DNA from: an uncultured Bacteroidales bacterium
GTDB taxonomy: Bacteria; Bacteroidota; Bacteroidia; Bacteroidales; FEN-979
NCBI GenBank assembly: GCA_903877385.1
Contig: CAIRDP010000060.1
Location: forward strand, 1-58,512
Length of the DNA: 58,512 bases
Direction: 5' to 3'
Translations under genes and position numbers: made by a program
Part shown: positions 1,805-22,038 of the stretch, piece by piece
How the letters are laid out: every line of letters begins with the position of its first letter
How positions within the stretch are numbered: position 1 is the first letter of the stretch
The notes under the pieces: generated by a model
Databases searched by the model: none
The model's input: the letters and a program-made list of their open reading frames with translations, nothing else
What the model was told of the DNA's origin: nothing

Positions 1805-3082
1805 TCATATGTTTAAGGTGTCGGAGGAAGGGTAAATGTTTTTTAATTGTAGTACCAGTAACTTTTGAACTGGGTCGGTGTTGTCGTAGTCGAGGCCGGT
1901 GTCGCGGCGGATTTCCCATACGTATTTCAAGGGGTTGATACGGGAGATGGGCGGGGTGTTGATGAACTCGATGTCTTTGAGCAGCAAGCCGCATTCGGCC
2001 AGGGTGTTTTGCAGGGACTGGATGAAGAGTCCCTGGATGGGTTGGATTACGGTGGCCATGGCTACTTCGTACTCGTTGAGGATACGGCTGGAGTCGAACC
2101 CTGTTTTTTCTTCGGAATAGGGGGTGAGGGAGCGGAACCAGTTGTGGATGGTGATGAGGGAGATTTCAGACTGTTTATGCAGCTCGGTCCAGTTATCTTC
2201 TTTTTCGCGGTTGAACGAAATAAATTTGGCTTCCTGGGAACTGATGCCGGGACCAAGATCGGCCAGATACTGGATAATGATTTCATTGGCCTTTGAGCTC
2301 AGAGCGCCTTTATATTCCTTAAACATGGCATCGAGCTGATCGGCCGCCTCATCGGAATTGACTCCCGGAATCACCAGTAAACCGGGCGTAGCAAAGGAAG
2401 ATTCAAGCCGGGTCTGATTCCAGATATTCGTAAGGCCCGAGATAATGACATTACGGATACCTGCAAAATAGGACGGGATACCATAATAGGTGAATTCCGG
2501 TTCGTAATCTTTAATATGAACCAGGGAGTGAAGCAATCCATCGTCACCCGAAGAAAACTGAGGAAACAGGCTGATTGATTTGAGGTTCTTGTCGTTACTT
2601 CCGTAATACAAATTCCAGTCGGGATGGATCAGGGCCTGACGGGCATCGATATGCAACCTTACCCGGGAAGCATCCTGGTGATAGACGTACACGAAGGAGC
2701 GTTTCTTGTTAGTGACCAGCTCATAGTAGCAGTTGCCAAAGGTGAGGTAATCGAAGCAAAGCTTTTTGAGTGTGGCCGGGAAGAGTTCCTTTCGGTTGTT
2801 GGGCGAGGCAAGAAAAGCAGCCGTCGCGGAATCGGAGGATTGAATGCCCTGCCCCAGGATGTAGTTGGTTTTGGAGTTGAGGATCGCCCTGTGAACGGGC
2901 ACTTCACGGGCGAGTTTGATCAATTGGCGGGGCAGGGCATTATCAATCCCGAAGGGGACAAACAGCTTTAAGGTAGAAGGATCCAATATCACGTCGGTAT
3001 CGACCAGGTCAAGGACGGGAGCATAGGAGAACTCGTAGAGACGTGGTACAGGTGACGATTTACGTGGATGCTTTGCAGACAT
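1805..3082 (-). CDS. Phage portal protein
   Basis: The 425-aa product has the usual length of HK97-type portals. The segment FVPFGIDNALPRQLIKLARE followed by PVHRAILNSKTNYILGQGI (residues about 41-80) is the typical opening of Bacteroidota phage portals. Other portal-like stretches are FDYLTFGNCYYELV and, near residues 280-290, a Gln/Glu-rich segment (SQEAKFISFNREKEDNW) of the kind preceding the stem. The portal forms the dodecameric channel at one capsid vertex and docks the terminase. Start ATG 3082 follows a double repeat leader. In transcription order it comes after capsid and protease, opposite to the usual portal-protease-capsid order. Confidence 0.85.
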   Translation of the reverse strand: MSAKHPRKSSPVPRLYEFSYAPVLDLVDTDVILDPSTLKLFVPFGIDNALPRQLIKLAREVPVHRAILNSKTNYILGQGIQSSDSATAAFLASPNNRKELFPATLKKLCFDYLTFGNCYYELVTNKKRSFVYVYHQDASRVRLHIDARQALIHPDWNLYYGSNDKNLKSISLFPQFSSGDDGLLHSLVHIKDYEPEFTYYGIPSYFAGIRNVIISGLTNIWNQTRLESSFATPGLLVIPGVNSDEAADQLDAMFKEYKGALSSKANEIIIQYLADLGPGISSQEAKFISFNREKEDNWTELHKQSEISLITIHNWFRSLTPYSEEKTGFDSSRILNEYEVAMATVIQPIQGLFIQSLQNTLAECGLLLKDIEFINTPPISRINPLKYVWEIRRDTGLDYDNTDPVQKLLVLQLKNIYPSSDTLNI

Positions 3083-3144: not shown

Positions 3145-4500
3145 TTAATCTCCAAACCCTGCCAGTACCAGTAATTCTGAGTGGAGGTAGGCGGTTTGGG
3201 CTTTGTACTGGACGCGGTAGCGGCGCATCTGGAGGTCGGTGTTGTACCAGGATTCGATGTCGTTGGTATCCATCAGGCCATCGGTGCCGAAGATGAGGTT
3301 GGGCTGGGTGGTTAACATGGCCCGGTGAGGCTGTACGCCGTTCTGGTAACTTGAAATCCAGGTATCCCAGTCGGGACGCACCAGAACCGGGTAACCTTCA
3401 TACGAAGGAACCGGCAATCCGCCAAGCATCATCGTAAGCGGAAGATCACCTGAAGTCTTGGCCTTGATGGTATGCACCAGGTTGCGCCACAGAGAACGGG
3501 TGACCATGAAAACCAAAGGAAATTCGAACATTTCGGGACGGGCTGCATCGATCATGGCTTCGAGGGTGTCGTCGGCTTCGTCGGTTGCCAATTTTCCCTG
3601 CTTTATGGCGGCAACCACTCCGGAAGCTGCAACAGAACCGCTGCCGGTAACACTGCCAGTGAAAGTAAAATCCTGGCCTTTGAAGCGGCTGACCACCTTG
3701 ATGGCACCGGCCGAAGGATTGGTTACAATGACACCACTTAAGGCTCCGCCACGGGCTTCGACAGTTGCTTTGTGGGTGGTGAGCCAGTTGTTGCAGGTGA
3801 CAGTGGCACTTGAGGAATAAGCCTGAGAATAAGCCACGCCGTTGATGGTAAGCACCAGAGCAGTATCGGTACCGGCGGTATAGGTGAGGATCTTCTCGGC
3901 CTTAACGGCAGCCGTTGCTGAAGCAACCACCACATGCTGAGCTGATGGTATGGCCCCGGATAACACATCCTTGATGAAATGCGTCATAAAACCGGTATAG
4001 CCCGAGAAGTTGGTATCGATGACCCCGGTTGGGATACCCGATGAAAGGACTTCCTGCAAGGGATTGCCAAAGAACATCTGGCGGATAAGGTCCTGCTGCC
4101 CGGCCTGGGCAATGATGGGAAGCATGATCTTGTTCCAGACATCGGGCTGTTTCATTTGCTCGATATCGTCCTCACGATACCCCGTAGCTAACAACTGCTC
4201 AACGATGGAGCCCCAGAAAGCACGGGCGTTCTGCTCGAACTCAAGGGCCATTGGAGCAACGGTGATGCTCTGGGTGGAGAGGGCGAAGGACCCGGTGGGC
4301 GTAAAGCCTGCTGATGTTTTAGGCTTGGTGATGAAGGATGGGCGTGAGATCTTGTTTAAAAGCTCGGTGCCCTTGATGTCGGAACGGACCGTGACGGCCC
4401 CGCGGATATCTTCGCCCATGAAAAAGGGGGCGATGAAATAGTCGTGGATGGACTGCTTGGTGAAGGCGGGAGAGATCCCGTGTGAGAAGATGTTGGACAT
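3145..4500 (-). CDS. Major capsid protein (HK97-fold, with inserted domain)
   Basis: The 451-aa product begins MSNIFSHGISPAF. The N-terminal third (TKQSIHDYFIAPFFMGEDIR, LSTQSITVAPMALEFEQNAR) and the C-terminal end (RYRVQYKAQTAYLHSELL) match the pattern of HK97-like capsid proteins of Bacteroidota phages. Residues about 200-292 are Ala/Ser/Thr/Gly-rich and beta-prone (AEKILTYTAGTDTALVLTIN to FKGQDFTFTGSVTGSGSVA) and look like an added surface domain. It follows the protease-scaffold gene at 40 bp, with a GGTGAAAT repeat between them. Capsid assignment rests on position and pattern; no cleavage site is evident. Confidence 0.8.
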   Translation of the reverse strand: MSNIFSHGISPAFTKQSIHDYFIAPFFMGEDIRGAVTVRSDIKGTELLNKISRPSFITKPKTSAGFTPTGSFALSTQSITVAPMALEFEQNARAFWGSIVEQLLATGYREDDIEQMKQPDVWNKIMLPIIAQAGQQDLIRQMFFGNPLQEVLSSGIPTGVIDTNFSGYTGFMTHFIKDVLSGAIPSAQHVVVASATAAVKAEKILTYTAGTDTALVLTINGVAYSQAYSSSATVTCNNWLTTHKATVEARGGALSGVIVTNPSAGAIKVVSRFKGQDFTFTGSVTGSGSVAASGVVAAIKQGKLATDEADDTLEAMIDAARPEMFEFPLVFMVTRSLWRNLVHTIKAKTSGDLPLTMMLGGLPVPSYEGYPVLVRPDWDTWISSYQNGVQPHRAMLTTQPNLIFGTDGLMDTNDIESWYNTDLQMRRYRVQYKAQTAYLHSELLVLAGFGD

Positions 4501-6135: not shown

Positions 6136-6507
6136 ATGGAATCGAAAACAAGTATCCGGCATAAATTCAAACCCGGGGAGGGAGGAAGACCCAAAGGATC
6201 GCCCAACAAGATCACTTTAGAGCAAAAAGAACGTATTGAATGGGTGCTGGAACTGCTTGATGAGACCCTTGAGGACAGCATCAGGAAACTGAAACCAAAA
6301 GACCAGGTTGATCTGTGGATAAACCTGCAGGAATACATACGGCCCAAGCTCCAACGGATGAATGTGGACCTGGGCCCGGCTGAGGACAAACTCACCAAGA
6401 TCACCTTCGAAGTCATCCAGAGTGGCATTCTTGCCGACGGAACAGTTAAATCCTTACCCCTTGGAAAAGACCATCAAGGTATCGACCGTATTCCGGAAAA
6501 ATTATGA
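6136..6507 (+). CDS. Probable terminase small subunit
   Basis: 123 aa. The N-terminus carries KFKPGEGGRPKGSPNKITL, the basic Gly-Arg-Pro-Lys-Gly pattern common in small proteins that precede TerL in Bacteroidota phages (DUF5681-like). A helical region follows (QKERIEWVLELLDETLEDSI). TerS recognises the packaging site and loads TerL. The 3' end overlaps the TerL reading frame by 47 bp, suggesting translational coupling. Assignment as TerS is by position and motif, not by a specific fold signature. Confidence 0.65.
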   Translation: MESKTSIRHKFKPGEGGRPKGSPNKITLEQKERIEWVLELLDETLEDSIRKLKPKDQVDLWINLQEYIRPKLQRMNVDLGPAEDKLTKITFEVIQSGILADGTVKSLPLGKDHQGIDRIPEKL

Positions 6508-7636
6508 AGCCGGGACCAAAATCGTCGTGAACCAGGGCGGGAGCCGGTCGGGAAAGACCTTTTCAATACTGCAGTTGCTCATCCTGGTGAAGGCCTTTGA
6601 AGGAAGCGACATGGTATTTTCGATCGTAAGGCGGAGCATGCCGGCCCTGAAAGCTTCGGCCATGCGGGATTTCTTCGAGATCCTCAGGATGGCGGACCTA
6701 TATGACGAGCGAAGCCACAATAAGACCGAGAACACCTACCAGTTGAACGGAAACCTGTTCGAGTTTATGAGCCTGGACCAGCCCCAGAAGAAACGAGGCG
6801 CCAAGCGAGCCTATTTGTTCATTAACGAAGCCAATGAACTCAGCCTGGAAGACTGGGTGCAGCTTTCCCTGCGAACCGAAAAACAAATCTTCCTGGACTT
6901 CAATCCGTCCATGGACGAACACTGGATCTATGACATCGTGATCCCCCGGAAAGACTGCACTTTCATCCATTCAACCTACCTGGACAATATCCAGTTTTTA
7001 CCTCCGGAGCAGGTGAAGGAAATCGAGAACCTGAAACAAGTGGATGAAAATTACTGGAGGATCTATGGACTGGGCGAGATCGGGCAAATTACCGGACTGA
7101 TCTTTACCAACTGGCGAACCGTTGACCAGTGGCCGGAATCCTGCAAGTGGATCAGCTATGGGATGGACTTTGGATTTTCCAACGACCCAACAACGCTGAT
7201 CAAGGTAGGATTAAGCTCAGGCGAACTCTGGATTGATGAGCTAATTTACTCCAGGGGGCTTACCAATACTGACATTTGCAGATGGATGAACCAGATCGGC
7301 ATCACCAAGGCCGACGAGATCATTGCTGACAACCAGCCTAAGTGCATTTACGAAATCCGGCAGGAAGGATTTAACATCAAACCTACATTTAAAGGTCCGG
7401 ATTCGATCCTGGCCGGGATTGACATCCTGAAACGGTATCCCATGCGGATCACCAAACGATCGGTTAACCTGATTCGTGAGCTGAAAAACTACAAATGGAA
7501 GGAAGATACTTCCGGAAAACCACTTAACGTTCCTGTGGACCGGTTCAACCATGCCATTGATGGAATCCGATATGCCTGCATGGGAAGGCTGTTCATGGGA
7601 AACAGGCTGATTAAGACGGCGAGGCACCTAAGGTAA
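6461..7636 (+). CDS. Terminase large subunit
   Basis: 391 aa from the proposed TTG start at 6461 (MEKTIKVSTVFRKNYEAG). An in-frame ATG at 6362 gives a non-homologous-looking Ser/Pro-rich N-terminus lying wholly inside the TerS gene, so the TTG is preferred. Walker A is GGSRSGKT (residues 26-33); the Walker B-like segment is AYLFINEAN. The nuclease half shows the acidic triad context: SYGMDFGFSNDPT, EIIADNQPK and DRFNHAIDGIRYACM. TerL pumps DNA into the prohead and cuts it. It is unusual that it is transcribed away from portal and capsid. Confidence 0.92.
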   Translation: MEKTIKVSTVFRKNYEAGTKIVVNQGGSRSGKTFSILQLLILVKAFEGSDMVFSIVRRSMPALKASAMRDFFEILRMADLYDERSHNKTENTYQLNGNLFEFMSLDQPQKKRGAKRAYLFINEANELSLEDWVQLSLRTEKQIFLDFNPSMDEHWIYDIVIPRKDCTFIHSTYLDNIQFLPPEQVKEIENLKQVDENYWRIYGLGEIGQITGLIFTNWRTVDQWPESCKWISYGMDFGFSNDPTTLIKVGLSSGELWIDELIYSRGLTNTDICRWMNQIGITKADEIIADNQPKCIYEIRQEGFNIKPTFKGPDSILAGIDILKRYPMRITKRSVNLIRELKNYKWKEDTSGKPLNVPVDRFNHAIDGIRYACMGRLFMGNRLIKTARHLR

Positions 7637-7650
7637 CCGGAAGCAGGGAA

Positions 7651-7671
7651 CCGGGATCGGGGATCGGGATT
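7651..7671. repeat. Tandem repeat, 3 x 7 bp, after terminase
   Basis: CCGGGAT, CGGGGAT, CGGGATT directly after the TerL stop. Same 7-bp style as the leader repeats but located 3' of a plus-strand gene. Confidence 0.8.
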
Positions 7672-7898
7672 TAGGCTTTATTCTCATTTAATGGAAGCCC
7701 GTCAACTGCTCGCCGACAAAAATCGGCAAATAAGAATGCAAGATTTCGGCAAATGAGTTTGAATGGGAGATCCTCCGGACTTCTTACTCTCAATTATAAT
7801 CCAAAAACGGCAGGTTATGATCCCGCCACGTTATGAAGCCCGAGGAACGAGGGCGAATAAGGTGGCAATGCTGGCAGGCAAACCGAGAATTCAAGTAT

Positions 7899-7927
7899 AC
7901 CAAGCGGCGTTCTTCACGCGGCTTGGT
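7899..7927. other. Hairpin 1 with internal CGG/CGG element
   Basis: Arms ACCAAGC and GCTTGGT, then G7906 opposite G7920, then GCGT/ACGC closing a TCTTC loop. Paralogous to the hairpin at 8026-8055, with compensatory arm changes. Confidence 0.8.
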
Positions 7928-7949
7928 AAGGTGATCGGTTGGCTTAACT

Positions 7950-7993
7950 GGTCACTTCATGAACGCGAAGTATGAGCGTGAAATGATGTGACC
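7950..7993. other. Hairpin 2 (long, interrupted stem)
   Basis: GGTCAC pairs with GTGACC, TCAT with ATGA, ACGC with GCGT, separated by a T-T mismatch and a small GA/GAA internal loop. Confidence 0.7.
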
Positions 7994-8025
7994 TGATTGA
8001 TTGTGGGCTGAGGAATGCAAATACG

Positions 8026-8055
8026 CCAACCGGCGTTGTTTTCAACGCGGGTTGG
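8026..8055. other. Hairpin 3 with internal CGG/CGG element
   Basis: Arms CCAACC and GGTTGG, G8032 opposite G8049, inner stem GCGTTG/CAACGC with a TTTT loop. An additional G-T pair (8025/8056) can extend it, which would be G-U if transcribed from the plus strand. Confidence 0.8.
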
Positions 8056-8235
8056 TGAGGAGGACAGATGGGGGACCTGCCGGGATTATGGAGGATGATT
8101 GCTACAAAGGACTCTCGTCCGGCCCGTCGAAGCCGGAGGCAGGGCATTTGCCGGTTTTTGAATCCAGGGGAGGGTATTTTAGGTGCGTTAAGCAATACCG
8201 GTAGTTACCGAATAATGAAGTAGGGCCTGAGATGG

Positions 8236-8265
8236 TTGCACGGCAGCCTTTTTGCTGCGGTGCAA
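8236..8265. other. Hairpin with internal CGG/CGG element
   Basis: Arms TTGCAC and GTGCAA, G8242 opposite G8259, inner stem GCAGC/GCTGC with a CTTTTT loop. Confidence 0.8.
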
Positions 8266-8884
8266 GCTCGGAAGGACCTGCGGTAGGGGAGTGGAGGGCT
8301 TGCATGGAAGCGTAGTGGAGCGTACGGCGCGGAGCGCCGGGTGTGAAACGAAGCGGACATTGAAGCCCGTAACGACCGGCTGGTGCCGGCAGGTATTGCT
8401 TAATGCACCTTTAACGAGGCAAAAATGCGCTGCCGATATTCTTGTGCGTCGAACTTAATTTTACTCGTATTGCAAGCCGGATGAGCACCCTCCAAATCTT
8501 CTCGTGATGCTAACGGGGATATTTAACATAATGTGGTTATAGGACTGACGCAGGTAGAATCCAATGCCGCCAAATGGCCAGGCAAACGCTGTGGACAGGG
8601 ATTCATTAAAAAACGGGGGTAGGCATCAGCCCATTGCGGTTGCCATACATTTGACGGCGTTGATCAAAGCCGGGATAGGCCGGCAGCGGCAGTACTATAA
8701 CATCATGTTATGTTAACATAGACCCGTACACGTTGTACTGAGGGAAGGGAAATGCTTGTTACCTGGGCGGGTTGGCGTGCTATGCAGGCTGGGCAAATGG
8801 GCGCGTTGGTTTAAACCGTGTGGATTGGCGATAAGGGTTTAAGGGACACTCCTGGCCGGAACAGAGCCTTCAAATAGAAAATTA

Positions 8885-8920
8885 ATACACCGGGTGCGAG
8901 GGACGAAGCACCGGGTGTAT
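8885..8920. other. Hairpin with internal CGG/CGG element
   Basis: Arms ATACACC and GGTGTAT, G8892 opposite G8913, inner stem GGTGC/GCACC closing a 10-nt purine-rich loop. Confidence 0.8.
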
Positions 8921-9117
8921 ACCATATTGAAGGGACCGGAGCAACGGCTAAGCCTGAACGAATGAGCGGTGAAGCCGTGAGGAGCTTGCGACGAAACGGA
9001 GCGGAACCGCCGAATGAGTGAATGGATTAGCGGTTGCGGAGTGTTGGGGAGTAAGATAGTTATAACAATTACTTACCCTGACAAATTGATGCCATTATAT
9101 GATGGAGCACAAATACA

Positions 9118-10581
9118 TTACTTTATGGCTGTCATTAATTCATTGAGGGTGTTCGGATTAGCAACGATTATCTTTGTTTTTGCATCTAGCAAAACCATCA
9201 CTGGAGTGGCTAAAACGAAATAATCGCTGGCCACTTTGCTGCGTACCCCTTCTTCAGCACGAATGTGGAGCCATCCTTTATGCTGCAATATCTGTTGCCT
9301 ATAGGCTTTAATTTCTGTTTCAGTTTCATCCAAGCTGATGGCCACAACCTGTATTTTCTGCTGCATTTCACCCTGCTGTTGCCATGGATAAAGTACTTTA
9401 ACGGTCTCCATACAATGACTGCAACCCGCCGACCAGAATAGGAGAAGAATATATTTGCACTGCGTTTTAAGTTCATACAAATCAAACAGATTCCCACCAC
9501 TATCCTTCATGGTAATATTTGGAGCAATGGTTCCGGTGACCAGTGTTTCCATGCCTTTTAATCTTCTGGCAATCTCCTGTCGTTTCGAGGTGAGGCAGGT
9601 TGAATCATTCAGGTAAGGATCCAGTACCTTCATCCCAGCCATTATACCGTTTGTTTCGTATCCCCTGTAAAAATAATCTACCATCCAGCCGTAGACCAGT
9701 GGGTGGCCTTGTTTTGCCTTTTCAATTGCGGTTTTACCTGCCATCGGGAATAGGGAATCACGCAGGGTTGCGGTTGTGCATAATTGTCCATAGAGATTTA
9801 CATAAGCGTCCATCCATTTGTTCATATCCGATGTTTTTGCAAGTAATGGGTCCTTAAAATCCATGTTATCAAAGTAGTGATTTATCAGGCTTCCAATCCG
9901 TTCGGTTTCGCTACCTTTCCATGGTATTTCAGGCACATACTGGAAACAATACAGATGACTTACAAATAAAGCGCTGTCCTGAATGCTTTTTGTTTGAAGC
10001 CATTGGTTGTAAGATTGTCTCCTATGCTCATATTCCTTGATGCCCTGCTGATAAAACTTCGATTCAGTATCATCATAATTCAACAGGAGATTTTGAAGAG
10101 GACCCAGTTTTTCTTTGTGCATACCATTTTCTTTGGAGAAAAATGTAAAAGCCATGTTTTCTCTTTCATCTTTCTGGAAATAGATGCTGTCAACATTATT
10201 GCAATACATTGGGTTGGCCCATAATTCCAGATTCTGGTCATTAATGAAAAAATACTTCTCTGAAGGGTAAGGCGTGCTTGACTCTTTTTCCCTGTAATCA
10301 AACCTTAAAACAAACTCTCCAGGCAGCTTTTGTTTAGGAACAGTTAGTTTGACTGCATCACCATTTCCCTTCGCATTTATTTCGAGAATGGGCTTAAATG
10401 TTCTGGAATCCGATAGGGCTAAGATGCTTATTTTGCTTTCGATAACACCTCTTAAATGGATTGTCAATGCAACATTCTGATCTTGTGCAAATAATTGAAA
10501 TGTCAGTGCCAATAATAGAAAGATGTCACTAACAATTGTAATTACTTTGGTTCTTAAACTAATAATCCAGTTGAATGCCAT
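9118..10581 (-). CDS. Secreted thioredoxin-fold (TlpA/DUF5106-like) protein, phage cargo
   Basis: 487 aa. Residues 1-33 are a signal peptide (ALTFQLFAQ before the cut). Residues about 34-130 form a beta-rich DUF4369-like domain, 160-340 a helical DUF5106-like region, and 350-487 a thioredoxin fold with redox motif WSAGCSHC (Cys near 387 and 390) and the cis-Pro context VLATPVMVLLD. Such proteins act as periplasmic thiol-disulfide oxidoreductases in Bacteroidota. It sits inside the prophage, convergent with the terminase side and with lower GC than the phage genes, so it looks like acquired cargo of host origin. No SSB, capsid or regulatory link is visible. Confidence 0.82.
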   Translation of the reverse strand: MAFNWIISLRTKVITIVSDIFLLLALTFQLFAQDQNVALTIHLRGVIESKISILALSDSRTFKPILEINAKGNGDAVKLTVPKQKLPGEFVLRFDYREKESSTPYPSEKYFFINDQNLELWANPMYCNNVDSIYFQKDERENMAFTFFSKENGMHKEKLGPLQNLLLNYDDTESKFYQQGIKEYEHRRQSYNQWLQTKSIQDSALFVSHLYCFQYVPEIPWKGSETERIGSLINHYFDNMDFKDPLLAKTSDMNKWMDAYVNLYGQLCTTATLRDSLFPMAGKTAIEKAKQGHPLVYGWMVDYFYRGYETNGIMAGMKVLDPYLNDSTCLTSKRQEIARRLKGMETLVTGTIAPNITMKDSGGNLFDLYELKTQCKYILLLFWSAGCSHCMETVKVLYPWQQQGEMQQKIQVVAISLDETETEIKAYRQQILQHKGWLHIRAEEGVRSKVASDYFVLATPVMVLLDAKTKIIVANPNTLNELMTAIK

Positions 10582-10653
10582 TTCTGAAATTCATCTTATT
10601 TTTAGGATTTATCAAATAAGTGAGTCTGGTTTTTGTGTAGTTCAATAATAAAT

Positions 10654-11277
10654 TCAATCTATAGGTTCAATATTACAATTCATACCGAGTCTAAAATCAC
10701 CTTCTTTAAAAGGACTCGAAAATTCCCTACTTATTGTTTTTGTTAAACCTGTTAGGGGGGCTGAGTAGTTTATTCGGACCCTTAAAAAAATGTTTGAGTT
10801 TTCTGAAAGAGCTTTCTGCAAATTATAATTACTCCCAACATGTGAATTAGGATTCTTGTCATCAGGATTTATCTTAGAGTGATTTTGATAATTGCCGTTA
10901 GAAACAAACCGATATGCATTTTTATAATTGCTGCCTTTAAAAAGAATACCGGGAAGTTCCCAAACCGAATCATTATAAAAGCATAAATGACCTTGTACTT
11001 TATCGATGCCATGTGTGTTTGAATTGCCTCTTTCTATAACTGATGCATCAATTTTAATATTATGAATTGTAAACAAACCTTTATTAAAGATTTTAAATTT
11101 ATAATAAGTTTTACCAACCTTATTTATAACTGCAATTTTACTGCATAAATGCAGACAGCCCTTGTAAAGAAATAAAACCAAGACGGCAATTATTGATGAG
11201 AAAAACCCAAAGATGATGTTGAGTAGCATATCGTAAGGGGTTTGAGTAAAACATTCATGAGTACATAAGCATTCCAT
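10654..11277 (-). CDS. Membrane-anchored protein, unknown
   Basis: 207 aa, start ATG 11277; an internal Met at residue 17 is an alternative start. Residues about 17-45 form one hydrophobic helix (FGFFSSIIAVLVLFLYKG). The rest is a soluble, Asn-rich beta-type domain (FKIFNKGLFTIHNIKIDASV, then LRVRINYSAPLTGLTKT). I do not recognise the family. The gene is notably AT-rich compared with the capsid and replication genes, as are its flanks, and belongs to the cargo stretch between the terminase and replication blocks. Confidence 0.65.
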   Translation of the reverse strand: MECLCTHECFTQTPYDMLLNIIFGFFSSIIAVLVLFLYKGCLHLCSKIAVINKVGKTYYKFKIFNKGLFTIHNIKIDASVIERGNSNTHGIDKVQGHLCFYNDSVWELPGILFKGSNYKNAYRFVSNGNYQNHSKINPDDKNPNSHVGSNYNLQKALSENSNIFLRVRINYSAPLTGLTKTISREFSSPFKEGDFRLGMNCNIEPID

Positions 11278-11338
11278 AATATCGCGTTTAATTATTTTAC
11301 TTTTTTATAATTATAAAATCTTTAAAAAGAAGAAATTG

Positions 11339-14300
11339 TCAGTAAAACAGTATACAACGAATCGTGTTTCCTGTTGTTTTTAAGGAATTATAAATTTGGC
11401 ATTGTGAAGCCCAGAAGAAAAGATATGAACCTTGGTCATTATTGTTCTGCTGACTGTCCCAGTATTGTCCATATGAACCGCGGGCTAATAGGGAACCATT
11501 TGTAGCGGTTAAGTACCCTGCCGCATGAAGCTTAAGACTGGAATTCCATGTGTCATTCCAACTATACCAGCCTCCATATAATATAAGATTAGACCATTCA
11601 GTGTAAGTAGGAATACGCCACCCAGTGCCAAGCTCAAGTGCACATGGGTCATTTGCCAATACCCAATCAGAGTTCTCACTTATTGGTGTTATCCACGTGG
11701 TATTGGGAGTTCTGGTCGTTCCATCATGCTTATACCCCTGTTTGCGGTTAAATTGCCAGTACCAGCCTGCTGATGGTTCAGTAGCATCATTTTTAGCAGT
11801 TGCCTGGTGGTCAGCACCAAGATTACTGGTAATCCAACATTTTGAAGGTTCACCGGGTACATTTGTAACAATACCATAAGTAACAGTTTTATTAACCGGG
11901 GCTACGCCTCCTGAAGTATTATGATTAACTGTTATTGAAGTAGGGCAGGTCCAAACCAAGGTAGTAAAACTTACTTGATTTCCAAAAGTCGTACCAAAAT
12001 TATTAGTTGAATAGGCTCTTACATAATATAGTGTATTCGCGGTAAGTCCAGATATATTGCTTATAAATGACCCAGTGCCACTCCCATCCGTAGTATGGCT
12101 GTTCCCTGTTGTTGGATTTGGTGATGTATTCCAGCAAACCCCTCTTGATATCACAGATCCCCCACCATCTGAAGTGATATTACCTCCACTGGTCGCCGTA
12201 CCATAAGAAATGTTTGTAAGTGTGTTTGTACTCAATGTAGCCCAAGGAAATGCTCTAATAGCCCGAACATTTTCACTGATATTATGATAAGCATTATTCC
12301 AGCTACAAGAATAAAAACTCCAATCATAAGCTGTGCCTCCTGAGTTATCGGTTGAAGCCCAATACCATCCAGAAGCGAAGCTACTAATATAATATTGTTG
12401 TTGACACAACTGAGTAATTTCACCATTAGAGGGTAAAAACCAATCTGAATAGCTGTTTAGGACAAGATTAACACAGTTTTTGGCTGCAATTCCCACCTCA
12501 GGACATTGATTGACAATAGCATAAGTACTTGATTGCCCACCCCCTAAAGAACCACTAGTCCCGCTAATCGGATAATTATTACACCCCCAAGGTGCGAGGG
12601 ATAAATCGCTTAAGGATGAAATAAAACCACCCTGACCAGCTCCATCGATGTAAAAAATTTTTCCTCCACCATAATTTTTCCCAATATAATAATTTGGTTC
12701 TGGCCCTTGAATACACCGGACAGAATGAGCTTTTGTTTTTATATATTGGTCTTTAGATAAATCTGGATAATTATAGCTAAGATATCTTGCCCAGGCATTA
12801 CTAACATTCTCCGAAGAAGACCAGAAATAACCGTTAAATGTTAGATTGGAGGAATAGTATCCCCCTGGAAGTCCAGTAAATCCACTGCTATTAGTTGCAC
12901 TAGTATTTGGTGAGGCCCAATGCACTAATCCCATTTCTTTCATTTTACCTCCTGCAACACTTGCCCCTCCAAGGTAATTGTTTAGCGTATCCCATTCTGT
13001 GTCTGTTGGTATATGCCATCCAGATGGGCATAGTCCAGACACACCAGCGGTTGGAGAATATTGCATTGCCTCATCCCATTGATATAACCCACCATAAACA
13101 TCACAATTTGATTCCATGTCTGCATAACAATATTTTTCTTTAATGCCATTATTAGTTTGACTTTGGCTACCAAGTATTTTTGTTCCGACGTTCAAATTTT
13201 CTTTAAACCAGCATTGAGTGCCAATTTGAACTGTATTGTATGTTTTGCCTTCATATGTCACAGTGGGCATACCTGGGCAGGGTTGACCACCAGAATTTGA
13301 AGTAGTGAATGTTAACTCATTTCCATACGAGGTTCCAATACTATTAGTGGCATAAGCCCGGACGTAATACAATGTACCTCCTGTTAATCCCGTCAGATTA
13401 CTAACAAAGGTGCCCGTTCCTGTTCCATCAATCGTATGATTTCCAGATATTGTCGGACCTGATGTTGTACTCCAACAGACACCTCTTGCTGTGACCGTAG
13501 CACCACCATCAGATAATACCGTTCCTCCACTCGTTGCTGTTGTTTGCGTAATATTTGTTATAGCAGCTGTGGTTACAGTTGGCAAATTCAATGTTGTAAA
13601 GGTCAATTCGTTTCCATAGGATGTCCCTACGCTGTTGGTTGCATAGGCCCTCACATAATATAATGTACCTCCTGTTAATCCGGTTATATTACTAACAAAG
13701 GTGCCCGTTCCTGTTCCATCAATGGTATGACTTCCAGCGGTTGTTGGCCCTGACGATGTACTCCAGCATACTCCTCTTGCAGTCACTGCTGCACCTCCAT
13801 CAGAGGTTACCGTTCCACCACTGGTTGCTGTAGTTTGAGTAATATTAGTCACTGCTGCTGTCGTCACAACTGGAGGAGTGGTACTTTGTCCAGTTGTAAA
13901 TGTAACTTCATTACCATATCCTGTTCCAACACTGTTGGTTCCATAGGCTCTCACATAATATTGGGTATTAGGTGATAACCCCGTTAAATAACTGATAAAA
14001 GGGCCTGTTCCACTGCCATCCATAGTGTGATTTCCTGCAATCGTAGGAGCAGGTGAAGTACCCCAACATATTCCTTTTGACGTTACAGCAGTTCCACCAT
14101 CAGAAGTAACATCACCTCCACAGGTAGCACTTGTCTGAGTTATATTCGTCACAGGGGAAGTTGTCACCGAGGGTAGATAATACATTGTCATATTAAAATA
14201 GTATGTTTTACTAGCTATTGGGCTGTCGTATAATATTTTTTCATTATACCCATTAGAATATGCCGTATACATCATCTGGTTTCCCAGATAAAAGATAAAT

Positions 14301-14881
14301 TGTGAATTGTTCTGGTCTTTAAGGTTATTTTTTTCAAAATCAGGAATGTGACCAAGGTATTGAATGGTATTATTCGAATTCCCTTGTCCGGCACTGATAA
14401 TTTTTATCGATCTGTTATTTTTTTCATCAAATACAGACAGTATCAACATTTTATTTTCTGATGATGAAATCACGAATGAATTAAATCCTTTTTCAAACTC
14501 ATGATGATATTCCGAAAGTTTTGCACCCAATTCATCAAAAAGTATTAAGTTTAATGTTCCTCCGTATTCCCGATAAATACTAACAATTGTTGTCCCTTGA
14601 AACGGATTGGGATAATTTTGCTTTAAAACGAATGATCCTGAGTTGTTGTCATTTTTTTCACCAATCCCAACAGGCCATGAGGCAATTAATGTTAGTACAG
14701 GGACAGGACCAAATAATAGTGTATCACAGTTCTCTGTCAAATTCTTAACATAAACGCTGTCAAGTGATATAAGATTCTGAGTAAGCGAATCTTTACCAAT
14801 AAAGGTAAAGGTCATCGGCGTCTGACTATAAATACTGAATGAGCCGAGTATAAAAAATATTAACAGATAGAACTTTTTCAT
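11339..14881 (-). CDS. Large secreted FISUMP / DUF1566 surface protein with Fn3-like repeats
   Basis: I chose ATG 14881 (MKKFYLLIFFILGSFSIYSQ, a signal peptide), giving 1180 aa; the longer frame adds 26 residues upstream of it. Order: N-terminal domain with a T9SS-tail-like NYPNPFQGTTIVSIY (about 100-170); three Fn3-like repeats (about 240-520) with motif VTSDGG and a YYVRAYATNS core; a FISUMP domain ending KAHSVRCIQG (about 540-720); a DUF1566-like domain ending SENVRAIRAF (about 730-890); a fourth Fn3-like repeat; and a final FISUMP-like domain ending TGNTIRCILFY. FISUMP domains have a C-type-lectin-like fold and probably bind surface ligands. It has its own promoter at 14915-14945. It is probable lysogenic cargo; a role in host adhesion or phage attachment is not distinguishable. 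Confidence 0.8.
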   Translation of the reverse strand: MKKFYLLIFFILGSFSIYSQTPMTFTFIGKDSLTQNLISLDSVYVKNLTENCDTLLFGPVPVLTLIASWPVGIGEKNDNNSGSFVLKQNYPNPFQGTTIVSIYREYGGTLNLILFDELGAKLSEYHHEFEKGFNSFVISSSENKMLILSVFDEKNNRSIKIISAGQGNSNNTIQYLGHIPDFEKNNLKDQNNSQFIFYLGNQMMYTAYSNGYNEKILYDSPIASKTYYFNMTMYYLPSVTTSPVTNITQTSATCGGDVTSDGGTAVTSKGICWGTSPAPTIAGNHTMDGSGTGPFISYLTGLSPNTQYYVRAYGTNSVGTGYGNEVTFTTGQSTTPPVVTTAAVTNITQTTATSGGTVTSDGGAAVTARGVCWSTSSGPTTAGSHTIDGTGTGTFVSNITGLTGGTLYYVRAYATNSVGTSYGNELTFTTLNLPTVTTAAITNITQTTATSGGTVLSDGGATVTARGVCWSTTSGPTISGNHTIDGTGTGTFVSNLTGLTGGTLYYVRAYATNSIGTSYGNELTFTTSNSGGQPCPGMPTVTYEGKTYNTVQIGTQCWFKENLNVGTKILGSQSQTNNGIKEKYCYADMESNCDVYGGLYQWDEAMQYSPTAGVSGLCPSGWHIPTDTEWDTLNNYLGGASVAGGKMKEMGLVHWASPNTSATNSSGFTGLPGGYYSSNLTFNGYFWSSSENVSNAWARYLSYNYPDLSKDQYIKTKAHSVRCIQGPEPNYYIGKNYGGGKIFYIDGAGQGGFISSLSDLSLAPWGCNNYPISGTSGSLGGGQSSTYAIVNQCPEVGIAAKNCVNLVLNSYSDWFLPSNGEITQLCQQQYYISSFASGWYWASTDNSGGTAYDWSFYSCSWNNAYHNISENVRAIRAFPWATLSTNTLTNISYGTATSGGNITSDGGGSVISRGVCWNTSPNPTTGNSHTTDGSGTGSFISNISGLTANTLYYVRAYSTNNFGTTFGNQVSFTTLVWTCPTSITVNHNTSGGVAPVNKTVTYGIVTNVPGEPSKCWITSNLGADHQATAKNDATEPSAGWYWQFNRKQGYKHDGTTRTPNTTWITPISENSDWVLANDPCALELGTGWRIPTYTEWSNLILYGGWYSWNDTWNSSLKLHAAGYLTATNGSLLARGSYGQYWDSQQNNNDQGSYLFFWASQCQIYNSLKTTGNTIRCILFY
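11940..12240. repeat. Fourth Fn3-like repeat unit, distant copy
   Basis: Encodes the same VRAYSTNNFGTTFGNQVSFT pattern as the three tandem units at 13290-14160 but more diverged, and separated from them by the FISUMP and DUF1566 domains. Confidence 0.7.
13290..14160. repeat. Three tandem Fn3-like coding repeats of about 280 bp
   Basis: Three adjacent units encode near-identical modules ending in ATNSVGTSYGNELTFTT or close variants. The first two in plus order are very similar at DNA level (shared stretches such as AATGTACCTCCTGTTAATCC), suggesting recent duplication or continuing recombination. Confidence 0.85.
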
Positions 14882-14914
14882 AAGATAATGTTTTACTTTA
14901 TTTACTTTACTTAT

Positions 14915-14945
14915 CAAATGTATAATAAAATAAAGCAAAGTCAAA
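14915..14945 (-). promoter_or_regulatory. Promoter of the FISUMP protein gene
   Basis: On the minus strand TTTG (14942-14945) is followed after 19 bp by TACATTTG (14915-14922), an exact match to the Bacteroidota TTTG-N19-TAnnTTTG promoter, 34 bp before the ATG. The cargo gene is therefore independently transcribed. Confidence 0.75.
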
Positions 14946-14988
14946 GAATTGTTAGACATTTTTCAGGGTAGACTATTTGAAAAGTGTT

Positions 14989-15459
14989 TCATGGAGGAAA
15001 AGTTGTACGATACCAATCATAGAATTCATCAAATGTATGAACGATGAGATAGATCCCTCCGGCTTTTTCGATTTCGGATTGATATCTTGCCTGGGCGAGG
15101 CTTTGGCGGTCGTGGCCCCATTTGATTTCGATTTTGACGGATTTGCCCTGGATTGTGGCGGAGATGTCGGCGGATCCTTTGGTCATGGCGGAGGGGATGT
15201 ATTTGACTGAGCCGATCTGTTTGCGGTGGCCGAGGATGTCGGTGTAGGTTCTTCGGCTGTTGATTACGCGTCCGGTGACTGAGATGCGTTCCGCCTGACC
15301 GCCGGTGAGGCGGATGAATTTGATGACGGCGTTGGTGAGTTCGTTTGCTGAGTTGGCTTTTATGGGTTTGCAATAAAGGAGTTCCGGGGGAATCCCGGGA
15401 TATCGTCTCTGCTTGTCGAGCCGGTTCATTTCGTTGAGGATATGGATGGGGGTTGGCAT
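14989..15459 (-). CDS. VRR-NUC-type nuclease
   Basis: 156 aa. The C-terminal half has the PD-(D/E)XK layout of VRR-NUC enzymes: GSADISATIQGKSVKIEIKW supplies the acidic Asp and the E-x-K pair, followed by SLAQARYQSEIEKAGG, the conserved Gln helix. Residues 1-60 are helical and may bind DNA. Phage VRR-NUC proteins are thought to act as structure-specific or Holliday-junction-type nucleases in replication or packaging. It is the last gene of the replication block; the preceding spacer (15460-15736) holds repeated CTCACA words. Confidence 0.82.
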   Translation of the reverse strand: MPTPIHILNEMNRLDKQRRYPGIPPELLYCKPIKANSANELTNAVIKFIRLTGGQAERISVTGRVINSRRTYTDILGHRKQIGSVKYIPSAMTKGSADISATIQGKSVKIEIKWGHDRQSLAQARYQSEIEKAGGIYLIVHTFDEFYDWYRTTFPP

Positions 15460-15736
15460 GGTTTCTCACATTTTCACAAACCTGAATTTCTTTGTGATGA
15501 GGTTAACTTATTGATATTTATTTGCTTATGGGGTTTCTCACAATCTCACGGGTTTTTGGAGGAAACTTCTTATAATTTTCTTTTGCCTTGTTTACTGTGT
15601 TCTCTATAGATTACTTTTATTATTTATTATTTGTGAGAAAATAATATATTATATTAGTATACAGATATTTATGTCCTCACAAAATGTCTCACAAAGGTTT
15701 CTTTTTATCCTCCAAATTCGTGAGGGTGTGAGATTT
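15460..15736. other. AT-rich spacer with repeated CTCACA/TGTGAG words (candidate origin or operator)
   Basis: Eight or nine CTCACA, CTCACG, TTCACA or TGTGAG words lie in 277 bp (for example 15465, 15537, 15545, TTGTGAG at 15631, 15676, 15688, and TGTGAG at 15727, which overlaps the edge of the next gene). They surround a very AT-rich core at 15600-15672. This layout, beside the prim-pol/helicase gene, fits iterons plus an unwinding element. It could equally be repressor operators or a scattered version of the leader repeats. No ORF is credible here. Confidence 0.4.
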
Positions 15737-17890
15737 TTAAAAGGGGAGTTCATCGACGGGGCTTTTCAAGTTTTCGGTATTCAGCATGGTTTTCTTGATG
15801 AGATATGGACGTCCTGTTTTAGGGGGATCATTGACAAATGGATTGAAATAAATGGAGTCGGGGACCGGGACGATGTTGAATTCATTCTTGAGAACGGTCC
15901 TGATGTAAGGTAAATCGATCCTGGGATCGTTGGCAAAGAATTTGCTTTTGATGGATTTGACGTCGGCATAGAATTCATCCTGGGCGCGGAGTTCGTTCAT
16001 AAACATATCTTCGAACAGCATGACCAGGGCTTTATAGAGGCTGGATTTCGATTCTTTCTTAACGTCGAGCAAAGATGTGTTTGACAATTCTGCCGGGGTG
16101 AAGCCAGAGCGGTCACGGGAGAAGTCAACCGGCGGCAAGATGGTCAGATAATGAAGGAATGCCGGGATTTCCTTCACCATATCGGCCTCGATGTTGTGGT
16201 TGGTGATAGATGGAATGCTGACTTTGCGGATGAAAAACCTGATTTCTTCTTCGTCGATACGGGCAAACTTGTCTTCGTTATTGGAGGTGAGGATTATCTT
16301 GCCGAAAAAGGGCATGCGGTACTGGCTGACGAATTTCTGGTTTACGGAGATGAACTTTTGTGTGGCCAGAGATTTGAGTTTTTCAACGGTTATGGCCTTT
16401 TCGATGAAGGTTTCCTCGACGGCGATGATGTTGCTGCTGGCATAGGTTGAATTGAAGCCATTGATAAGGTCGTCGGGGGAAATGATGGCCATGTTATCGC
16501 CAAATATCATGCTGAGCCAGTTCACAAAGGTGGTCTTGCCGGTTTGCCGTTCGCGGCTGACCATGACCAGGATGGGCATCAGGCGATCGGGGTGCAAGTA
16601 AAGGATTTGCAGGTACCTGAGTCCAAGTTCATATTGTTCGCCGAAAATATGGCGGATAAGGACCTCGGTCCAGTCCCAGCTGCCGAGCGATGGCTTATGT
16701 GTGAAGGGACGATACAGATTATAGCAGTTATTGACGATGGGGGAGAAATTAAGGTTGTCGGGTAGGATTGTAAAATCATCAAAATGAGCAATCTTATCGA
16801 GGATTGCCTTGCCATGATCCTGTTTGATTGCATCTATTTTCCATGGTTTGAGTTCCGTCCTGCTTAGCCCGAAACGGTCGGTCTTCTTTATTTTCTTGAA
16901 AAAATCCACGCCGATCCGGATATAAGGGACCTCTTCATCAAAATACTTCTGCTGGATCCAGGAGATGGCTGCACTGTACGAATCGTTAAACCGCAGGCGA
17001 ACTAGAATCTGGAATGGTGAATAGTAACATTCATTTAGAAATGGCGGAGCGGAAGAGCTGAAGACATACAAGGAGTTGTGCTTTTTGCCCCAGGTGGCTG
17101 AATGTTCATTGCCCTGCTTGCCCGGGCGTTTCCAGTACTCGATGTCTTCAGTTTCATCAGTCCGCAGTTTTACCCAGCCCTTTTCCTCCAGGAGTTTTTT
17201 AGCATAAGCGGAGCAGTTCCAATTAAAATAGCTGACGGGGTCGGTGTTGTCGAAGTGAAGGGCGGGAGGAAGGACGGAAGGAAGATCGTGAGGAAGGACG
17301 TGAAGAAGATCGTGAGGGAGGAGGTGGGTGAAGGTTTTGGCGAGGGTTATCAGGTAGTTACGTTCATCCTGGGTGATTGTTGGGATGGAATTGATTGATC
17401 CGCTGAGGATGGTGTAGTTTGGGGAGGGATAAACTACCGTGTATCCTCCTTCGCCACGGGTTTCGATCATGGATTCTCCGGAGGGCCAGTTTGCCAGTTT
17501 GCGATTGCCTTCGTAAATACCGGTCTCATACCGGTAAAGGATATGATATCCGCCCCGGGGAGAACGTTCGATTGGCGGGTTATACCTGGACAGGAGACTC
17601 TTGACGCCTTCATCCGCAGTAAATTGTTTAAAGATCGTTTCGATATCATTCTCATGGGAATCGAAATCCATGACCTCCAGTCCGCCTGAAACAGAGCCGG
17701 AAATGAGAGCCAGTCCCCATGCCTGTAAAAACAGTTGATCGCAATCCTCAAAATCGGGCAGGGCCTTTTGATACCTTTCCCATTTCAGCGTTGCCCGTTT
17801 ATCGGCATTCACCGGGATAACAGACAATCCGGCCAGCAGATACTCTTCGGCAATCTCACGGATGCTTGGAACTGGAGAATCTCTGATCAT
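15737..17890 (-). CDS. Prim-pol primase / SF3-type helicase
   Basis: 717 aa from ATG 17890. Residues about 10-190 are a bifunctional primase-polymerase domain with EVMDFDSHE, PRGGYHILYRYE and RGEGGYTVVYPSPNY motifs. A linker with short degenerate repeats (HDLLHVLPHDLPSVLP) follows at about 195-215. Residues about 430-600 are a D5/SF3-like helicase with Walker A RERQTGKTTF and a Walker B-like AVEETF, plus KIILTSNNED. The final residues are SPVDELPF, like the C-terminal tip of SSB. It should prime and unwind phage DNA at the origin. It lies downstream of the SSB-like gene by 47 bp. Confidence 0.88.
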   Translation of the reverse strand: MIRDSPVPSIREIAEEYLLAGLSVIPVNADKRATLKWERYQKALPDFEDCDQLFLQAWGLALISGSVSGGLEVMDFDSHENDIETIFKQFTADEGVKSLLSRYNPPIERSPRGGYHILYRYETGIYEGNRKLANWPSGESMIETRGEGGYTVVYPSPNYTILSGSINSIPTITQDERNYLITLAKTFTHLLPHDLLHVLPHDLPSVLPPALHFDNTDPVSYFNWNCSAYAKKLLEEKGWVKLRTDETEDIEYWKRPGKQGNEHSATWGKKHNSLYVFSSSAPPFLNECYYSPFQILVRLRFNDSYSAAISWIQQKYFDEEVPYIRIGVDFFKKIKKTDRFGLSRTELKPWKIDAIKQDHGKAILDKIAHFDDFTILPDNLNFSPIVNNCYNLYRPFTHKPSLGSWDWTEVLIRHIFGEQYELGLRYLQILYLHPDRLMPILVMVSRERQTGKTTFVNWLSMIFGDNMAIISPDDLINGFNSTYASSNIIAVEETFIEKAITVEKLKSLATQKFISVNQKFVSQYRMPFFGKIILTSNNEDKFARIDEEEIRFFIRKVSIPSITNHNIEADMVKEIPAFLHYLTILPPVDFSRDRSGFTPAELSNTSLLDVKKESKSSLYKALVMLFEDMFMNELRAQDEFYADVKSIKSKFFANDPRIDLPYIRTVLKNEFNIVPVPDSIYFNPFVNDPPKTGRPYLIKKTMLNTENLKSPVDELPF

Positions 17891-17937
17891 ATACAAAGAT
17901 TTAAAGTGGTTGAAGAATCATGATCATACGCCAGGAA

Positions 17938-18270
17938 TCAGAATGGAAGATCATCTTCAGGAGCTTCAAAATGGCCAGGATCGGATGATTGAGGAGCTGA
18001 ATGGACTGACTTCATCGCGGGAGTCATAAGGTGATCGTTAAGCTGAGACTCAGTCGGTTTTTGATACTCCTGGATTTGTTTTTCCTCGATATACCCGGCG
18101 ATCCTGATCTTTCCGGAATCGGTGAACCGGGCCCAGGCGGATAGGCGGATATCTATCCCTTTGAACTTCGCTTCGCCAAAGAAGTCGGGGGAGTTTTCTT
18201 TTTTCTTGAATTCAGGATCCACTTTAATGAGGCTGAAGGTGCCTTCTTTTGTTTCGAATTTGTCGGACAT
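17938..18270 (-). CDS. SSB-like phage protein with acidic DDLPF tail
   Basis: 110 aa. Residues 1-65 form a compact beta domain (GTFSLIKVDPEFKKK, FKGIDIRLSAWARFTDSGKI) of the type found in small phage single-strand-binding proteins. A flexible Gln/Ser/Pro linker follows, and the protein ends EAPEDDLPF, matching the acidic-hydrophobic tip by which bacterial SSB recruits partners. A single-stranded-DNA coating role in phage replication is likely but the OB fold is inferred. It is preceded by an 8-bp tandem-repeat leader and followed by the prim-pol gene. Confidence 0.72.
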   Translation of the reverse strand: MSDKFETKEGTFSLIKVDPEFKKKENSPDFFGEAKFKGIDIRLSAWARFTDSGKIRIAGYIEEKQIQEYQKPTESQLNDHLMTPAMKSVHSAPQSSDPGHFEAPEDDLPF

Positions 18271-18278
18271 GGGGTTAA

Positions 18279-18325
18279 GGTTTGAAGGGTTGAAGGAATG
18301 AAGGAATGAAGGATAAAAGGTTTAA
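18279..18325. repeat. Leader tandem repeat, 8-bp period, six units
   Basis: Units GGTTTGAA, GGGTTGAA, GGAATGAA, GGAATGAA, GGATAAAA, GGTTTAA between the hydrolase stop (18331) and the SSB-like start (18270). Confidence 0.9.
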
Positions 18326-18330
18326 GGGTT

Positions 18331-19032
18331 TTAGAACGGGTGTTTGGACAGGTATACTTCGAGGCCTTTGTCGGCGATCCATACCGAGGTATTGGGCGCA
18401 ACTGTTTGTACCGATTTTTTAAACAGTTGTGCATTGGAATTGGCGCTGCTCAGATGCAGAAGGACAATATTGCGGACCTGCCGCAAATCGTTTGTCTGGA
18501 GGAATCCCAGGCAAGTCTCAAGGCTCATGTGCCGACCAACGGCCCGGTCGCTGGTGAGGATGGCATCCTCATAATTGGCCTCAATAAGGATATGATTGAG
18601 GTTATTGAATTTGTTTGAAATATATGCTGCATCTGTCACGAACAGAATGGAACCGGAAAACGGATGATTGATCAGGAAACCGAAAGTAGTCACACCATGA
18701 GGAACCGGGAAGGGGATGACTTTGAATTCACCGATCCGGATCATGGCATTCGCCTGGATTGGATGGACCCGGTGGCCTGAGATGCCAGCAGCCTGAATGG
18801 TTTCGGCTGAAGTATAGATATCGATACCAGCCTTCATATAATCATCGGCGTACTTGCAATGATCCCCATGGGCATGGGTTATGAAACATCCTATGACCTT
18901 CCGCAGATCATAATTCAGGGCTTTTTTAACATCATTTAAGCGGATACCGGCCTCAATGATGAGTATCTCGAAAAAGGATTCGAGTAGATAGCAGTTGCCT
19001 GCAGATTCGCTGCCGAGGACTTTGAGTGTCAT
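18331..19032 (-). CDS. Metallo-beta-lactamase-fold hydrolase (YycJ/WalJ-like)
   Basis: 233 aa. It begins MTLKVLGSESAGNCYLLES, typical of the YycJ branch, and carries the metal motif THAHGDHCKYAD (about 53-64), PHGVTTFGFLI (about 110) and FVTDAAYIS (about 130). The start codon overlaps the RecT stop by one base (TGATG), so the two are translationally coupled. Enzymes of this branch have been linked to DNA repair with exonuclease activity, which would suit a RecT partner where no RecE-type exonuclease is present. That pairing is inference. Confidence 0.85.
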   Translation of the reverse strand: MTLKVLGSESAGNCYLLESFFEILIIEAGIRLNDVKKALNYDLRKVIGCFITHAHGDHCKYADDYMKAGIDIYTSAETIQAAGISGHRVHPIQANAMIRIGEFKVIPFPVPHGVTTFGFLINHPFSGSILFVTDAAYISNKFNNLNHILIEANYEDAILTSDRAVGRHMSLETCLGFLQTNDLRQVRNIVLLHLSSANSNAQLFKKSVQTVAPNTSVWIADKGLEVYLSKHPF

Positions 19033-19958: not shown

Positions 19959-19979
19959 ACGTTTAGGGTTTTAAGATTT

Positions 19980-20056
19980 GAATATCGAATATTGAACATT
20001 GAGTGATGAATGTTGAATGAAGTAAATTGAACACTGAATGATGAATGTTGAATTAT
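19980..20056. repeat. Leader tandem repeat, 7-bp period, eleven units
   Basis: Units of the form GAANNNN run without interruption: GAATATC, GAATATT, GAACATT, GAGTGAT, GAATGTT, GAATGAA, GTAAATT, GAACACT, GAATGAT, GAATGTT, GAATTAT. The last unit overlaps the stop codon of the SbcC-like gene. Confidence 0.92.
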
Positions 20057-21996: not shown

Positions 21997-22038
21997 GGGA
22001 AATGGGGATTGGGGACTGTGTACTGGGTACTGGGCGTT
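21997..22038. repeat. Leader tandem repeat, 7-bp period, six units
   Basis: GGGAAAT, GGGGATT, GGGGACT, GTGTACT, GGGTACT, GGGCGTT follow directly on the ATG of the SbcC-like gene (minus-strand leader). Confidence 0.85.

Follow-up and report, generated by a model that had tools for sequence, protein, structure and literature searches.

The locus described here raises the question of what is encoded by a long stretch without genes that lies between the terminase gene and the cargo genes of a Bacteroidales prophage. The window, the whole stretch of DNA that was analysed, comprises 58,512 nucleotides from an uncultured Bacteroidales bacterium, and a preliminary description made from its sequence had proposed a giant structured RNA of the prophage at 7683-9042, between convergent terminase and cargo genes. 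The prophage setting was borne out, with portal, terminase, RecT and integrase genes surrounding the region. The convergent arrangement also stands: the gene for the terminase large subunit (TerL) on the forward strand is real by its Pfam match, and the next genes converge on it. The features of the prophage are the following.

1805-3082, reverse strand: portal protein (PHROG portal, E 3e-13)
3145-4500, reverse strand: 451-aa protein, probable major capsid protein by position and conservation (Pfam and PHROG name no function)
6136-6507, forward strand: 123-aa ORF, probably the small terminase by its position; conserved beside TerL, with only a weak match to a PHROG of unknown function
6362-7636, forward strand: TerL, 424 aa (Pfam Terminase_3, E 2.9e-22; PHROG terminase)
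7637-7821, forward strand: variable spacer 3' of TerL, containing a short dispersed repeat at about 7720-7757
7822-9043, forward strand: conserved region of the predicted structured noncoding RNA (blastn and nhmmer modules, sharp 3' end, covariation)
9044-14988, reverse strand: variable cargo slot encoding a 487-aa thioredoxin-like, a 207-aa and a 1206-aa Fib_succ_major protein, absent from relatives that share the far side
14989-25234, reverse strand: conserved early block, syntenic beyond the cargo and ending in the integrase gene (23909-25234)

The 123-aa ORF and the start of TerL overlap by 146 bases in different frames. On its left side the prophage consists of head genes and ends beyond the contig start; lysis genes are present in relatives L037 and L056. 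The early block encodes a 156-aa protein (weak endonuclease match), a primase-polymerase, an SSB-like protein, a metal hydrolase, RecT, an SbcC-like protein, an HTH protein, a 321-aa protein and the integrase. A DDE transposase gene (25820-27583) adjoins the integrase end of the prophage.

An ORF scan from the TerL stop at 7636 to the first convergent gene at 9118 detected no ORF of more than 83 aa within 7640-9040. The five ORFs of 67-83 aa inside the region are frameshifted in 8, 9, 6, 9 and 7 of nine aligned relatives, respectively (the first was compared from 7802 onward only), and none of them is intact across all nine. Frame and full length are kept for the ORF at 8001-8204 in L036 and L096 and for the ORF at 8252-8458 in one relative. 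Among ten relatives the longest ORF in the RNA span varies from 78 to 216 aa, and the 216-aa frame, found in L096, is interrupted by two stops in L097, where the identity is 97%. With 83 aa as the longest ORF and none intact in all relatives, the earlier statement that the region holds no credible ORF is upheld. Modules found in relatives by blastn and nhmmer, together with a sharp 3' end, place the structured region at 7822-9043 on the forward strand (about 1.22 kb). The previously given end is thus correct within a few bases; the start has to be moved, as shared homology begins at about 7822 in most relatives and the spacer 7637-7821 is alignable throughout in L040 only. The short repeat at 7720-7757 (CGCCGACAAAAATCGGCAAATAAGAATGC...) occurs in several related genomes, sometimes as adjacent copies or close to contig ends.

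Folding energies were compared with a dinucleotide-shuffle reference in overlapping windows of 200 nt. Inside the region the mean z-score was -1.48 on the forward and -1.68 on the reverse strand, with values below -2 in 5 of 12 and 7 of 12 windows, compared to means (forward/reverse) of -0.38/-0.05 in the upstream and 0.29/0.20 in the downstream flanking genes, where 4 of 122 windows fell below -2. By this measure the forward strand scored no better than the reverse strand. Consensus structures placed 24 helices of at least three pairs in the window, so that the initial count of at least fourteen stems was fair, and hairpins exceed chance. The purine-rich linkers that had been noted are G-rich on the plus strand (GC skew 0.18-0.24 in windows starting at 7750-8750); the accompanying AT skew is weak. 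Four module profiles defined the order M1-M2-M3-M4 behind TerL, and the modules and their stems in the window are listed below.

7822-7889, forward strand: M1, a 5' stem CGCCAC...GTGGC enclosing a GCCC-GAGGAACGA-GGGC hairpin (nhmmer profile M1 and alignment; stem by eye)
7898-7928, forward strand: hairpin TACCAAGCGGCGT / ACGCGGCTTGGTA, first of a repeated pair (inverted repeat I6; second match to M2 positions 3-61)
8026-8055, forward strand: the same hairpin, second copy (CCAACC..GGTTGG; direct repeats D1/D2)
8138-8434, forward strand: M2a, a domain closed by long-range pairing (14-sequence consensus, model R2)
8138-8152/8418-8434, 8182-8202/8389-8409 and hairpin 8231-8247/8254-8269, forward strand: stems of M2a (same 14-sequence consensus)
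8476-8744, forward strand: M2b-M3, in which stem 8520-8551/8686-8720 closes a variable insert (20 sequences, model R1)
8872-9043, forward strand: M4, with hairpin 8885-8897/8908-8920 and a 3' domain closed by 8941-8954/9024-9037 (13 sequences)

A blastn search with 7637-9060 identified copies or parts on four further contigs of the same genome (C10, C63, C49 and C54) and the short repeat only on contig C31. Matches were found in 14 of 61 genomes, its own included, and at least three of these (G009, G015 and G031) match only through the short repeat at about 7720-7757; the same search of the phages and plasmids collections gave no DNA matches. A TerL search added 31 loci on genome contigs (18 titled Bacteroidales and 9 Bacteroidetes) and 20 on viral contigs, and the lake names in many titles suggest that the relatives come from fresh water. 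After removal of duplicate fetches, 54 TerL loci were available to count linkage; TerL identity is 79% or more in 28 of them and 72% or less in the other 26. At loci with at least 1.75 kb of downstream DNA, a limit chosen after viewing the list, at least one module was present 3' of TerL in 17 of 17 loci of the first group and in 0 of 20 of the second. The remaining 11 and 6 loci have shorter downstream DNA, and among the 11, L099 still has modules. Among the 17 linked loci, L068, at a contig end, has just M1, and M2b-M3 is the single module in each of L050, L051 and L102; because L064 and L044 are the same sequence from two assemblies, they amount to about 16 independent loci. The converse linkage, from RNA to TerL, is not strict, since modules without TerL in view exist in L038, L039, L049, L054 and L055 and on contigs cut close to the RNA.

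In the divergent TerL clade, opposite-strand ORFs come after TerL, one of them DUF6943; L079 and L082 nevertheless contain one isolated stem that matches model R1. The opposite-strand proteins after TerL in L085, L078 and L080 carry Fib_succ_major, FGE-sulfatase or PSII_BNR together with a secretion sorting domain; in L082 the first ORF after TerL has no family and a Fib_succ_major protein follows further on. L087 and L089 are contigs titled Alphaproteobacteria that carry this phage family and are probably mis-binned. The host range is narrow. The genomes are assembly-derived, and L064/L044 may be mis-binned. Judged from these comparisons, a temperate phage family of Bacteroidales has conserved the region as a structure of several domains.

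In nine relatives, model R2, built from M2a, also gave a weaker match to an additional copy that lies upstream (approximate E values of 2e-7 to 0.035). This paralogous domain has the long closing stem in common with M2a. As no second R2 copy was reported in the window, its RNA counts as a short member; from M1 to the last module seen, relatives measure between 1.35 kb (in L097) and about 1.8 kb (in L047).

Covariation was analysed in four alignments with RNAalifold consensus structures, using loci hand-picked out of overlapping fetches. A1 (M2a) contains the window copy and 13 of 14 such loci, the partial L049 being omitted. A2 (M2b-M3) contains 20 of 22 aligned sequences, without L097 (diverging 3' part) and L045 (cut at a contig end); the weaker R1 matches L054 and L055 were also left out, as was the weak L100 match from A3 (M4, 13 sequences). 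A5, the upstream paralogous domain (11 sequences), combines the nine second R2 matches with L096 and L097, chosen by position, and omits L101 (partial match of 75 nt, E 0.0012) and L049 (E 0.19, where the second match overlaps the main one). As controls, the structure was slid along the alignment and 500 shuffles were made, whose statistics are inflated by related sequences. Covariation was above both controls in all four alignments. In A1, 90.1% of the cells were paired compared to 35-41% for slid structures, with 20 double-change pairs across 8075-8440 compared to 6-13, and the covariation score was 0.170 compared to 0.124 for shuffles (0/500). For A2 these values were 89.0% (slid 32-49%), 10 double-change pairs (5-8) and 0.096 (shuffled 0.054, 0/500); the double-change margin is narrow here, as a slide of -3 gives 8 pairs, and one column pair occurs as GC, AU, CG and UA. 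A3 gave 97.4% paired cells (29-38%), 4 double-change pairs (0-1) and a score of 0.078 (0.053, 0/500). The strongest covariation was found in A5, with 91.0% paired cells (35-41%), 23 double-change pairs (3-8) and a score of 0.238 (0.127, 0/500). The number of further pair types was not above shuffles in A1 (61 compared to 65.3) and barely so in A3 (12 compared to 11.1).

Because the consensus structures were derived from the alignments on which they were scored, a cross-validation between near and far relatives was performed. Structures from the near group paired 324 of 413 test cells of the far group in A1 and 451 of 597 in A2 (slid 33-42%; A1 34-40%), and structures from the far group paired 726 of 916 and 331 of 384 cells of the near group (slid 26-44%). 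Where the commonest pair differed between the groups, a compensatory double change was present in 6 of 36 and 6 of 29 cases in A1 and in 2 of 26 and 3 of 11 in A2, most of the differences being non-compensatory. In a strand test, both strands were folded under identical rules. M2a (A1) showed 120 G-U and 28 A-C pairs on the terminase strand, compared to 51 and 53 antisense, and the upstream domain (A5) showed 72 and 12, compared to 26 and 27 antisense. This excess of G-U over A-C on the terminase strand only, in M2a and the upstream domain, points to a sense RNA. In A2 (67:24 sense, 63:17 antisense) and A3 (11:6 and 28:10) the ratios are alike on both strands and do not distinguish RNA from DNA hairpins there. 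Covarying secondary structure is combined with the lack of a conserved ORF, which is what marks the general class of structured noncoding RNAs, and a structured RNA is very likely present in the region.

To place this RNA among known families, the region and its relatives were compared with Rfam 15, and no family scored above threshold. For the region itself, the only match at E ≤ 5 was to a human lncRNA model (16.9 bits, 60-bit cut-off). Rfam includes group I and group II intron models; neither matched, and a ribozyme also lacked Rfam support. With nothing at gathering level in the region, the earlier remark that it is not recognisable as GOLLD or ROOL agrees with the search, which returned no intron either. 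The four matches seen in distant copies at E up to 1 fell far short of threshold: the drz-agam-1 ribozyme in L046 (25.2 of 37 bits; a layout by eye failed), IS009 with about 21 of 117 bits in both L046 and L100, and, in L047, a snoRNA of Tetrahymena. Within the order, R2 matches 3 of 393 genomes, the family being thinly sampled, and one of these scores the same as G002 and is perhaps mis-binned. R1 matches 20 of the 393 genomes, and 10 of 43 in the family. Of 18 genomes with R1 matches outside the family, 16 match by the stem only, as a free-standing inverted repeat with its own flanks, and two remain (G350 and G213), where locus L223 sits behind a large-terminase-like protein (by eye). Free-standing inverted repeats of this kind (GCTATTTAACATAATGTG...CACATTATGTTAAATAGC, L215-L228) have conserved flanks in several Bacteroidales families, and we take their arms to resemble Xer dif or attC sites; none of the seven loci compared with Rfam had a match at E ≤ 0.5. 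These stems may be true relatives or one shared mobile stem.

Among the matches listed, no terminase-linked Bacteroidales RNA was described in titles or abstract openings of the open-licence literature. Of the Bacteroidetes motifs in Table 1 of PMC2864571, the Rfam search covers the numbered ones, Bacteroides-2 and GUCCY-hairpin being unnumbered in that table. Rfam has profiles of GOLLD, ROOL and OLE according to passages of PMC12286853. The same passages present GOLLD as a very large, ornate RNA of prophages and phages, with many members of more than 800 nucleotides, often near tRNA islands and with a universally conserved 3' region. The RNA described here is likewise very large, ornate and borne by phages or prophages; unlike GOLLD it has no Rfam match, lies 3' of TerL beside a cargo slot and spans at least 1.2 kb. 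Also in contrast to GOLLD, there are no tRNAs in the 58.5-kb window (single tRNAs occur in L038, L039 and L041), and the 3' module M4 was detected within the genus only, except for a weak nhmmer match in L100. ROOL is a large structured prophage RNA as well, of 659 nt in the example studied there (PMC12286853), about half the length of the present RNA, which differs by its neighbourhood and the lack of an Rfam match. OLE, ARRPOF and HEARO share with it that they are large structured bacterial RNAs, and again there is no Rfam match; ARRPOF owes its name to a plasmid and HEARO has a nickase as its partner (PMC12286853, PMC12641628), whereas here the nearest endonuclease-like gene (14989-15459, 156 aa, weak) is 6 kb away.

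The ten copies compared at the 3' end have the same motif, with slight variation, near 9041 and then diverge; the 3' end of the RNA is sharp because the variable cargo slot adjoins it. On its far side the slot ends at 14914-15010, as judged from the seven loci alignable there. The early block is present in 11 of 24 loci compared, L041 giving a 59-nt match only; C63, C42, L096 and others have no early block in the fetched DNA and are perhaps incomplete or equipped with different early genes. Following the RNA, L044 has hybrid histidine kinases and a CheB/CheR protein, L040 a hybrid kinase, L043 PKD and TPR proteins, L036 a MutS-like protein and L096, as second gene, a Piwi-domain protein. These cargo genes are likely lysogenic-conversion or defence genes. 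As the copies diverge sharply at the 3' end of the RNA, a mini-element of 10.5 kb ending there was considered at first and was rejected because the early genes past the cargo are syntenic; no convincing repeats were found between the RNA 3' end and the far left end of the prophage, the supposed ends of this element. The copy on C154 (L041) has its own integrase, adjoined by the tRNA. Parts of the RNA 3' end without TerL in L038 (9640-10122) and L039 (9969-10288), one directly after a tRNA gene, are probably prophage remnants. In L042, copies of M4 at 14616-14790 and 18427-18592 flank a 310-aa ORF and two IS21 IstA/IstB-like ORFs (by eye), which suggests exchange by recombination between M4 copies.

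The different cargo that relatives carry after the RNA 3' end, M4 without TerL in G000 (L038 and L039) and M4 twice around the IS21-like ORFs of L042 would all suit an element acting as DNA, in which the hairpins and the 3' end form an acceptor site for cargo swaps and no RNA is needed. The stem 8520-8551/8686-8720, which recurs free-standing in other Bacteroidales, fits this explanation too, its TTATGTTAA arms presumably resembling the XerD arm of dif. Yet this stem is some 320 nt away from the cargo edge, and in five of five copies no repeat common to the two true slot edges, direct or inverted, stands out from shuffles (6-8 nt compared to means of 6.5-7.0). Moreover, the sense-only G-U excess in M2a and the upstream domain is unexpected of DNA hairpins, and we regard a recombination element of this kind as unlikely. 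Equally unlikely is a packaging-motor or prohead RNA that would work with the terminase by analogy to the pRNA of phi29. The position 3' of TerL in one TerL clade only (17/17 compared to 0/20) agrees with such a role, but this is an ordinary terminase of the Terminase_3 type, known relatives of which function, as far as we know, without RNA. The pRNA of phi29, which acts with the packaging motor, measures 174 nt, and the present RNA, of at least 1.2 kb, is far longer.

Neither a promoter nor a terminator of the RNA's own was identified in 7500-9200. No sigma-70-type promoter-like site was present in this interval; since Bacteroidetes promoters differ from the sigma-70 type, the absence fits read-through of the terminase operon but is not proof of it. 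Terminator-like sites numbered seven in 7500-9200 compared to 2.1 in shuffles, three on the forward and four on the reverse strand, six of them inside domains and one at the 5' edge (7807-7829). This excess, and the position between convergent units, could indicate that the region works in cis, as a 3' UTR or an insulator by which convergent late and early/cargo transcription are both ended and kept apart. However, long-range domains and a duplicated domain exceed what a terminator needs, and the terminator-like sites are split over both strands with none at the 3' end, making this explanation a little less likely still than a recombination element or a packaging RNA. It is improbable that the RNA, or its DNA form, is a machinery or acceptor for uptake and swapping of cargo in which the folded 3' domain fixes the insertion edge; if true, it would be a giant RNA-directed cargo-acquisition system, with the free-standing Bacteroidales stems as its relatives. 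A decayed gene, intron or transposon end would account for the lack of genes, some repeats and the frames of up to 216 aa in single relatives, and can be dismissed as very improbable in view of the conserved structure, the unshared frames and the lack of matches to Rfam introns or other families.

We therefore return to a noncoding RNA: on the sequence evidence, the region probably serves a family of temperate tailed phages in Bacteroidales to encode a large, structured noncoding RNA in the same direction as the terminase. The best reading is a new family of giant phage noncoding RNA that may, by analogy, be of the GOLLD/ROOL kind, to neither of which it has a match. Its transcription would fall in the late phase, either as the 3' portion of the p86-TerS-TerL transcript or right after it, and late transcription appears somewhat favoured. 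With less confidence, we propose that the RNA would act in trans during lytic growth, as is supposed for GOLLD and ROOL, and would be an RNA machine, with or without protein, and not a cis-regulator. GOLLD and ROOL, the best-studied giant phage RNAs, form RNA-only cages of which the function is not known according to the passages cited (PMC12286853), and an assembly role like theirs is a tentative suggestion for the present RNA. A family that is independent of these, has one domain in duplicate, keeps to a fixed position beside the gene for packaging and borders a cargo slot on its 3' side would add to the giant phage RNAs, of which to our knowledge few are known, and would offer a comparative handle on the purpose of giant RNAs.
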